Positions 41,259 through 42,294 of a stretch of DNA of 42,294 nucleotides are shown here, one piece after another. The stretch lies in the NCBI GenBank assembly GCA_026390935.1, contig JAPLEZ010000104.1:1-42294 (forward strand), read 5' to 3'. This DNA is from Bacteroidota bacterium. Its GTDB lineage: Bacteria; Bacteroidota; Bacteroidia; Flavobacteriales_C; GCA-002722245. A model generated the notes under the pieces. That model had not been told where the DNA came from and ran no database searches. It was given only the letters and a program-made list of their open reading frames with translations. Position 1 is the first letter of the stretch; each line of letters starts with the position of its first letter. The position numbers and the translations under genes were made by a program.

Positions 41259-41481
41259 ATGATGTAATTTTAATTCGAATTTCAGGTTTCAATTTGTATT
41301 CCAAGATGATTTTTATGTCACTATGACCTGATCTTGATCACTTCATTGACATAAAGACTTATCGACAAAATAAAACAGGAGAAATTGTCATTGTGTGGAT
41401 GAAAAAATAGTATTAATTTTCACATGTAACTTTTCAGCTATTAATTTGTTTTAGATTAACAATTGAGTACTTCGATTTTTG

Positions 41482-41646
41482 TTCCGGGGGGGACTAGCGT
41501 TAACTAAATGGCAATTAAATCTGTTAGTTAATTAAACATCAAGCCTCCGGAAATGCAAAGAAAATTTTATTTTTTTCATTTATCTGTTCGTTCTAAATGT
41601 GGGACGAAATCTGCTGTTTCCGAAGGTGGACATCCACTTTTTTTAT
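41482..41646 (+). promoter_or_regulatory. Candidate attenuator or riboswitch-like leader
   Basis: Three segments can pair in mutually exclusive ways. A (TTCCGGGGG, 41482-41490) pairs with B (CCTCCGGAA, 41544-41552) over 9 bp with one G-U. B (CCTCCGGAAA) also pairs with C (TTTCCGAAGG, 41617-41626), ten positions with one mismatch. The end of C is the left arm of a terminator hairpin (41623-41640) followed by a T run. A:B pairing would free the terminator; B:C would block it. Within A:B lies a second perfect 8-bp pair, TTAACTAA (41500-41507) and TTAGTTAA (41524-41531), flanking a 7-codon frame ATG...TAA. No match to a riboswitch class is recognised. The rest of the 434-nt gap shows no gene. Confidence 0.4.
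41623..41646 (+). terminator. Intrinsic terminator inside the GH8 leader
   Basis: AAGGTGG and CCACTTT form a 7-bp stem (one G-U) with a 4-nt loop, followed by T residues (seven T in a row, 41638-41644, partly in the stem). It lies 67-70 nt before the GH8-like start codon on the same strand, so it would stop transcription before that gene. Confidence 0.6.
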
Positions 41647-41712
41647 ACCCTAACCTAGCCAACCCAAACAACTTAAGATAAAACAGTTAGAATGTACTAC
41701 TTTACTTTTACT

Positions 41713-42294
41713 ATGAATTCACGATCAATTTTTAGCACTTTGTTTTTTGTGCTATTCTACTCTATAGCCTTTTCTCAGGTTACCGTTAATATCAATTCAG
41801 GCAATCCGAATCATCCTTTTCCTCAGTTTTATGATTATAAAGGAGGAACTTCTTTAGCGTCAGAAAACGGAGTGGGAATGCCACATGCCGAGATGGAGCA
41901 GAGAATAAGGGACGCTTATAAAATCATGACCAACAGCATGACTTACAATGTAAACAATGGCGGAGTTTACGGTCCGGTTACTGTTGCAGGAGTGAAATAT
42001 ATTATGCCGCATGATGTGGCTTCAGGGGCTGATGCCGGACATTGTACCTGCGTGGAAGGTGACGGATACAACTTGCTGGCAGCGGCTTACATGGCTGATA
42101 AAGCTACGTTTGATGGATATTATATGTGGGTGCACGACCGCCAGTTTCAAAAAACAAAACGCTTCATTGATTGCGTTACCAATTCACCTGGGTATTCGTA
42201 TAGTCCGGGAATTTCAGGCGCAGGTAGTTTAGGTGCTCCAACTAATGTTAAGGGAGGTGGAAGAAGAAATCGAGAAGATGGTGTGGGCGATCCG
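41713..42294 (+). CDS. Secreted glycoside hydrolase family 8-like protein, 3' end outside window
   Basis: The 194 visible residues start with a signal peptide (MNSRSIFSTLFFVLFYSIAF, cleavage near SQ) and continue with PHAEMEQRIRDAYKIMTNSM, then GHCTCVEGDGYNLLAAAYMA (Glu115) and DKATFDGYYMWVHDRQF. The CVEGDGYNLLAA block resembles the SEGxGYG catalytic-acid block of family 8 glycosidases and DKATFDGYYMWVHD its W/F-D-x-L-W continuation. Such enzymes cut beta-glucans or chitosan. An in-frame ATG at 41692 would add seven residues before the signal peptide. The family assignment is moderate because only the first part is visible; other (alpha/alpha)6 glycosidases are possible. Confidence 0.6.
   Translation, partial: MNSRSIFSTLFFVLFYSIAFSQVTVNINSGNPNHPFPQFYDYKGGTSLASENGVGMPHAEMEQRIRDAYKIMTNSMTYNVNNGGVYGPVTVAGVKYIMPHDVASGADAGHCTCVEGDGYNLLAAAYMADKATFDGYYMWVHDRQFQKTKRFIDCVTNSPGYSYSPGISGAGSLGAPTNVKGGGRRNREDGVGDP

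Follow-up and report, generated by a model that had tools for sequence, protein, structure and literature searches.

A structure-conserved, lineage-specific 5′ leader with possible cis-regulatory function upstream of a GH8-like gene in Bacteroidota

The DNA analysed here, referred to as the window, is a stretch of 42,294 nucleotides that ends within a GH8-like gene. Sequence comparison indicates that this gene is preceded by a real, lineage-specific leader with a conserved structure. The leader, of about 230 nt, lies between an ECF-sigma promoter and a gene for a type IX–secreted, GH8-like giant protein. It would fold into conserved hairpins and, in the reading that is tentatively favored here, may act in cis on its own gene once transcription is under way. 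The comparisons show the promoter motif, its regulon context, and the conserved hairpins directly; the transcription start, the alternative pairing in the cell, and the effect on translation are what we infer from them, and most of the evidence comes from two close sequences, namely, the window and one genome of the same genus (G002). To our knowledge, few mRNA leaders of Bacteroidota are understood, and this leader is a concrete case in which to test the control of large type IX–secreted surface proteins by RNA structure near the translation start. All coordinates given below are window positions, and the features are on the forward strand.

The N-terminal part of the GH8-like gene occupies positions 41692 to 42294, where the end of the contig cuts the gene. 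Its ortholog in G002 encodes 2493 amino acids, in which a T9SS type B sorting domain accompanies DUF11 and PKD domains and a weak GH8 match (23.3, just below the cut-off of 24). The expectation that the controlled gene product is secreted and GH8-like was borne out. The start codon at 41692 is favored over that at 41713 because an ATG is found at the place matching 41692 in both G002 and a further ortholog, G004, which lacks an ATG matching 41713. A contig search for GH8 homologs returned three same-genus MAGs, one Cytophagaceae record, and one Chitinispirillaceae record, and the promoter motif described below is absent upstream of the latter two. In another genome, G003, the gene follows closely behind another gene and the leader is absent. 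Separately, the final 40-odd bases of the contig (42250–42294; protein ...GGGRRNREDGVGDP) mismatch the orthologs and look like low-quality contig-end sequence.

An ECF-type promoter, TGTAAC-N15-TTGTTTTA, is located at 41425–41453, and the same motif with equal spacing lies upstream of the orthologs in G002 and G004 and of the paralogs of the GH8-like gene. In the whole genome (G000), there are eight perfect sites, compared to one for the reversed pattern used as the control in these genome-wide statistics, and all eight are upstream of genes; across five genomes of the genus, the counts are 22 and 1, respectively. Most sites are 20–314 nt upstream of genes whose products have a signal-peptide-like start, and the promoter of the GH8-like gene is 238–240 nt from that gene in three genomes. 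One site precedes a sigma gene, the product of which matches sigma_PG0214 (NF058625, NCBIfam) with 140.5 bits (cut-off 130). Two genes follow: the product of the first bears a PorP/SprF domain in the C-terminal half, and the second encodes a PorP/SprF protein. Genes for secreted giant proteins and the ECF sigma gene itself share this promoter and form a small regulon, and the motif ties the GH8-like gene to an autoregulated sigma factor adjoining PorP-like proteins. The picture is one of an ECF regulon that is autoregulated and linked to type IX secretion, in which the sigma_PG0214-type sigma factor presumably reads the motif. At the sigma locus (L107:1857-5032, G000:C36), the sigma gene with its own regulon promoter is followed by a 554-aa protein that combines an N-terminal part containing one apparent membrane segment, as judged by eye, with the C-terminal PorP/SprF domain. 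This protein is a candidate anti-sigma factor that would extend to the outer membrane, resembling the dual membrane-spanning factors known from Bacteroides.

With this promoter just upstream, transcription is likely to start near 41455–41463, as predicted from the promoter geometry with either the −35 element TGTAAC or a −7 type box (TAATTTGT, 41443–41450), and the leader should therefore be transcribed. This zone precedes every element described in the original prediction, and a start downstream of 41646, which would have spoken against that prediction, is thus improbable. Together with the compensatory changes found in G002, the regulon promoter makes a transcribed, structured leader very probable.

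Among 100 relatives searched at the DNA level, G002 alone aligned over the leader, with 79% identity over 281 nt; four other matches were short, AT-rich, and chance-like. Similarity between the window and G002 is 10% in 41395–41414, upstream of the promoter, and 41 of 75 fourfold degenerate coding sites (55%) agree, while 41465–41498 and 41646–41667 are 100% identical. Column-shuffled RNAalifold tests of the two aligned sequences gave z = −3.8 (0/200) and −4.3 (0/150) for the whole leader and z = −6.7 (0/300) for its 3′ half. In the consensus, which includes a long-range closure, 43 of 43 pairs are kept between the window and G002, four of them by double change, and slid controls gave 23–44% paired compared to 100% for the consensus. 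A covariance model built from the window and G002 matched only these two among 60 genomes; the next best match, in genome G039 (E 0.002, one of the 60 genomes), overlaps open frames and was taken to be chance. The check for the same leader before other genes accordingly gave no example in the 60 genomes, and a search with the G-hairpin pattern yielded no second leader, the near-perfect matches that were checked being apparent coding stretches.

Three local hairpins are conserved, and the compensatory changes are found in two of them, P3 and P5. First, hairpin P2 (GUUAAC-UAAA-UGGCA...UGUUA-GUUAAU, 41499–41532), which spans the perfect 8-bp pair between TTAACTAA (41500–41507) and TTAGTTAA (41524–41531), keeps 11 of 11 pairs in G002, three of them through one-sided change. 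Second, hairpin P3 (41588–41607) keeps 8 of 8 pairs with two compensatory and two one-sided changes. Third, hairpin P5 (41623–41640), which is terminator-like in the window species, keeps its lower five pairs with two compensatory changes. At the 5′ end, an invariant block (41465–41498, 34 of 34 nt identical in G002) carries a local hairpin, GUUCC[GGGG]GGGAC, at 41481–41494. A 5′ hairpin is kept with other sequence, CUUCC[GGGG]GGAAG, in G004, which has no confident alignment beyond it and shows two small hairpins ahead of the start region. A seven-codon frame within P2 (41508–41531, MAIKSVS), suggested as a possible leader peptide, was rejected, as the corresponding frame in G002 reads MTK-stop.

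How these elements might act depends on which segments pair over long distances. Segment A (41482–41490), inside the invariant block, can form nine pairs, one of them G-U, with 41544–41552 of segment B (CCUCCGGAAAUGCA, 41544–41557). Positions 41544–41553 of B can alternatively form 9 of 10 pairs with 41617–41626 of segment C (GCUGUUUCCGAAGG, 41613–41626, of which GCTGTTTCCG is invariant in G002), with a C-A mismatch at 41547/41623. Further downstream are segment D, the invariant UACCCUAACCUAGCCAACCCAA (41646–41667, 22 of 22 nt identical in G002), which offers CUAGCC and CCC for pairing with the 5′ block in the RNAalifold consensus, and the start-codon region AACAG...AUGUACU (41682–41698), in which AACAG can pair with 41479–41483 and GUACU with 41466–41470. 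In the favored reading, translation would be open when the 5′ block is paired with B and closed when the block is paired with D and the start-codon region while B is paired with C. The two-sequence consensus places these long-range helices in the order AGUAC/GUACU (at the start codon), UUGUU/AACAR, GGG/CCC, GG/CC, and CUAG/CUAG. All 19 long-range pairs are kept in G002 with almost no variation, and covariation cannot prove them because nearly all are invariant; the closure would nevertheless explain why both the 5′ block and D are frozen. Folds of the growing transcript of the window exchange A:B for A:D plus B:C as soon as 41667 has been made. The single-sequence fold of G002 prefers another structure in which A:D is not formed, and G004 has no significant comparable long-range pairing. 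Tests of long-range duplex energy gave modest support, with p = 0.015–0.05 for the window, 0.11–0.17 for G002, and 0.04–0.13 for the alignment. The long-range closure is the leading but unproved mechanism.

The original prediction was of a transcription attenuator, in which A:B allows a terminator at 41623–41644 and B:C disrupts it. Segments A, B, and C, the terminator hairpin, the 8-bp pair, and the MAIKSVS frame are all present in the window where they had been described, as is the four-base overlap of C with the terminator stem (41623–41626). The stem (41623–41629/41634–41640; −8.5 kcal/mol) is followed by T7 at 41638–41644; this hairpin was missed by a simple terminator scan, probably because some of the Ts are used in the stem. 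A terminator-like hairpin combined with exclusive A:B and B:C pairings occurred in only 1 of 1000 dinucleotide shuffles of 41461–41691, with criteria set post hoc, and 41478–41650 folded as a single sequence gave z = −2.06. Folds of transcript prefixes gave B:C at 0.88 when the window was read to 41630, and both A:B and the hairpin at 0.92 when it was read to 41646. However, the exclusiveness holds for A:B against B:C and not fully for B:C against the terminator: the B:C core (CGGAAAUGC/GC-U-GUUUCCG) lies clear of the terminator stem and can coexist with the hairpin, which is incompatible solely with the outer CCU/AGG pairs. In G002, the terminator falls to −1.7 kcal/mol with a broken U-tract and the tail CACUUUUACC (CACUUUU), two of the nine A:B pairs are broken with segment A unchanged and no compensation, and the ten B:C positions comprise five unchanged, one compensatory, three broken, and one that is mismatched in the window only. 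Of the two alternatives, only a CCGG core is kept in G002, and no counterpart of B was seen in G004. The promoter, the exclusive helices, and a hairpin with T7 that is a credible terminator in the window would still fit an attenuator working only in the window species, and the attenuator reading as such, supported only in part, is rather unlikely. Because relatives do not retain the terminator, a role in translation or in the fate of the mRNA is likelier than that of a classical attenuator, with translational control somewhat favored over attenuation. As originally stated, no known riboswitch was recognized: Rfam 15 had no match in the window at the gathering score, and with relaxed thresholds the best weak matches (E 0.18 or worse) were far below it. 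The accompanying idea of sugar or nucleotide sensing drew no support, as nothing points to either ligand.

Alternatively, the leader may be a passive structured 5′ untranslated region, in which the hairpins stabilize the mRNA or the conserved blocks bind a protein or small RNA and no switching takes place. Such a role is compatible with all the data, including the compensatory changes in local hairpins, the 34-nt invariant block, and the GGGG-loop hairpin shared with G004, but on its own it does not explain why the start region carries a matching invariant block, and it is considered unlikely. It is very improbable that the leader ends mainly at 41644 as a small RNA some 185 nt long: the promoter and terminator-like end of the window species would suit such a molecule, but G002 lacks the terminator, and the spacing of promoter and gene is kept at 238–240 nt in the three genomes. 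Chance pairing in an AT-rich spacer, for which the reliance on two close sequences leaves some room, is scarcely credible given the z values of −3.8 to −6.7, the compensatory changes, and the slid controls.

Other members of the regulon were also examined for leader structure. The long leader shared by loci L029 and L038 has a conserved structure (z = −5.8); within about 210 nt downstream of its promoter, it contains an invariant hairpin, AAAAUGAGAAUAAAACUCAUUUU, and encloses the start codon in a small hairpin, AAUCA-UUA-UGAUU. As a lead only, this points to a wider leader pattern in the regulon. Structure is not conserved in three pairs of short regulon leaders (z 0.4 to 0.7), and pairing of 5′ ends to starts in other regulon leaders is not significant. 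The long paralog leaders L052 and L021 are too diverged for a structure test; they share a hairpin and then CUAACUUUUGURUAUAG-like letters, and the remainder is not alignable. At L022, L025, and L036, the regulon promoter is followed by a conserved small frame (MNELIKKYQRQQVEEF...), a terminator-like hairpin, and a small lipoprotein-like protein. That the regulon generally adds control at the RNA level, with long leaders whose 5′ ends fold onto the translation start and switch by alternative pairing, is doubtful; if true, two of the long-leader genes of this ECF regulon for giant type IX–secreted surface proteins would be the first cases of such control.

Compared to known regulatory leaders, the favored cis-acting leader shares features with two classes. 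First, it resembles trp-type or ligand-gated attenuators in having exclusive A:B and B:C pairings and, in the window genome, a terminator-like hairpin, but it differs from them in lacking a conserved terminator, a conserved peptide, and a recognized sensor, and in preceding a gene for a secreted giant protein. Second, as in translational leaders that sequester the start, its 5′ block and start region are invariant and complementary. Shine-Dalgarno pairing is little used in Bacteroidota translation, and unlike in those leaders no Shine-Dalgarno role is expected here and the pairing is without covariation proof.

The regulon likewise has counterparts. In Porphyromonas gingivalis, the ECF sigma factor SigP controls type IX secretion-related genes, and its target motif differs from TGTAAC-N15-TTGTTTTA (PMC4800418). 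In Flavobacterium psychrophilum, SM6, an ECF-type motif class, controls type IX secretion genes and also precedes a sigma/anti-sigma operon, and a second motif class reads TAnnTTGY (PMC9723704); the GH8 promoters described here happen to match the latter, whereas the paralog promoters do not. Unlike the SigP and SM6 regulons, the present one has a sigma factor of the NF058625 (sigma_PG0214) type, and its targets are secreted giant proteins.
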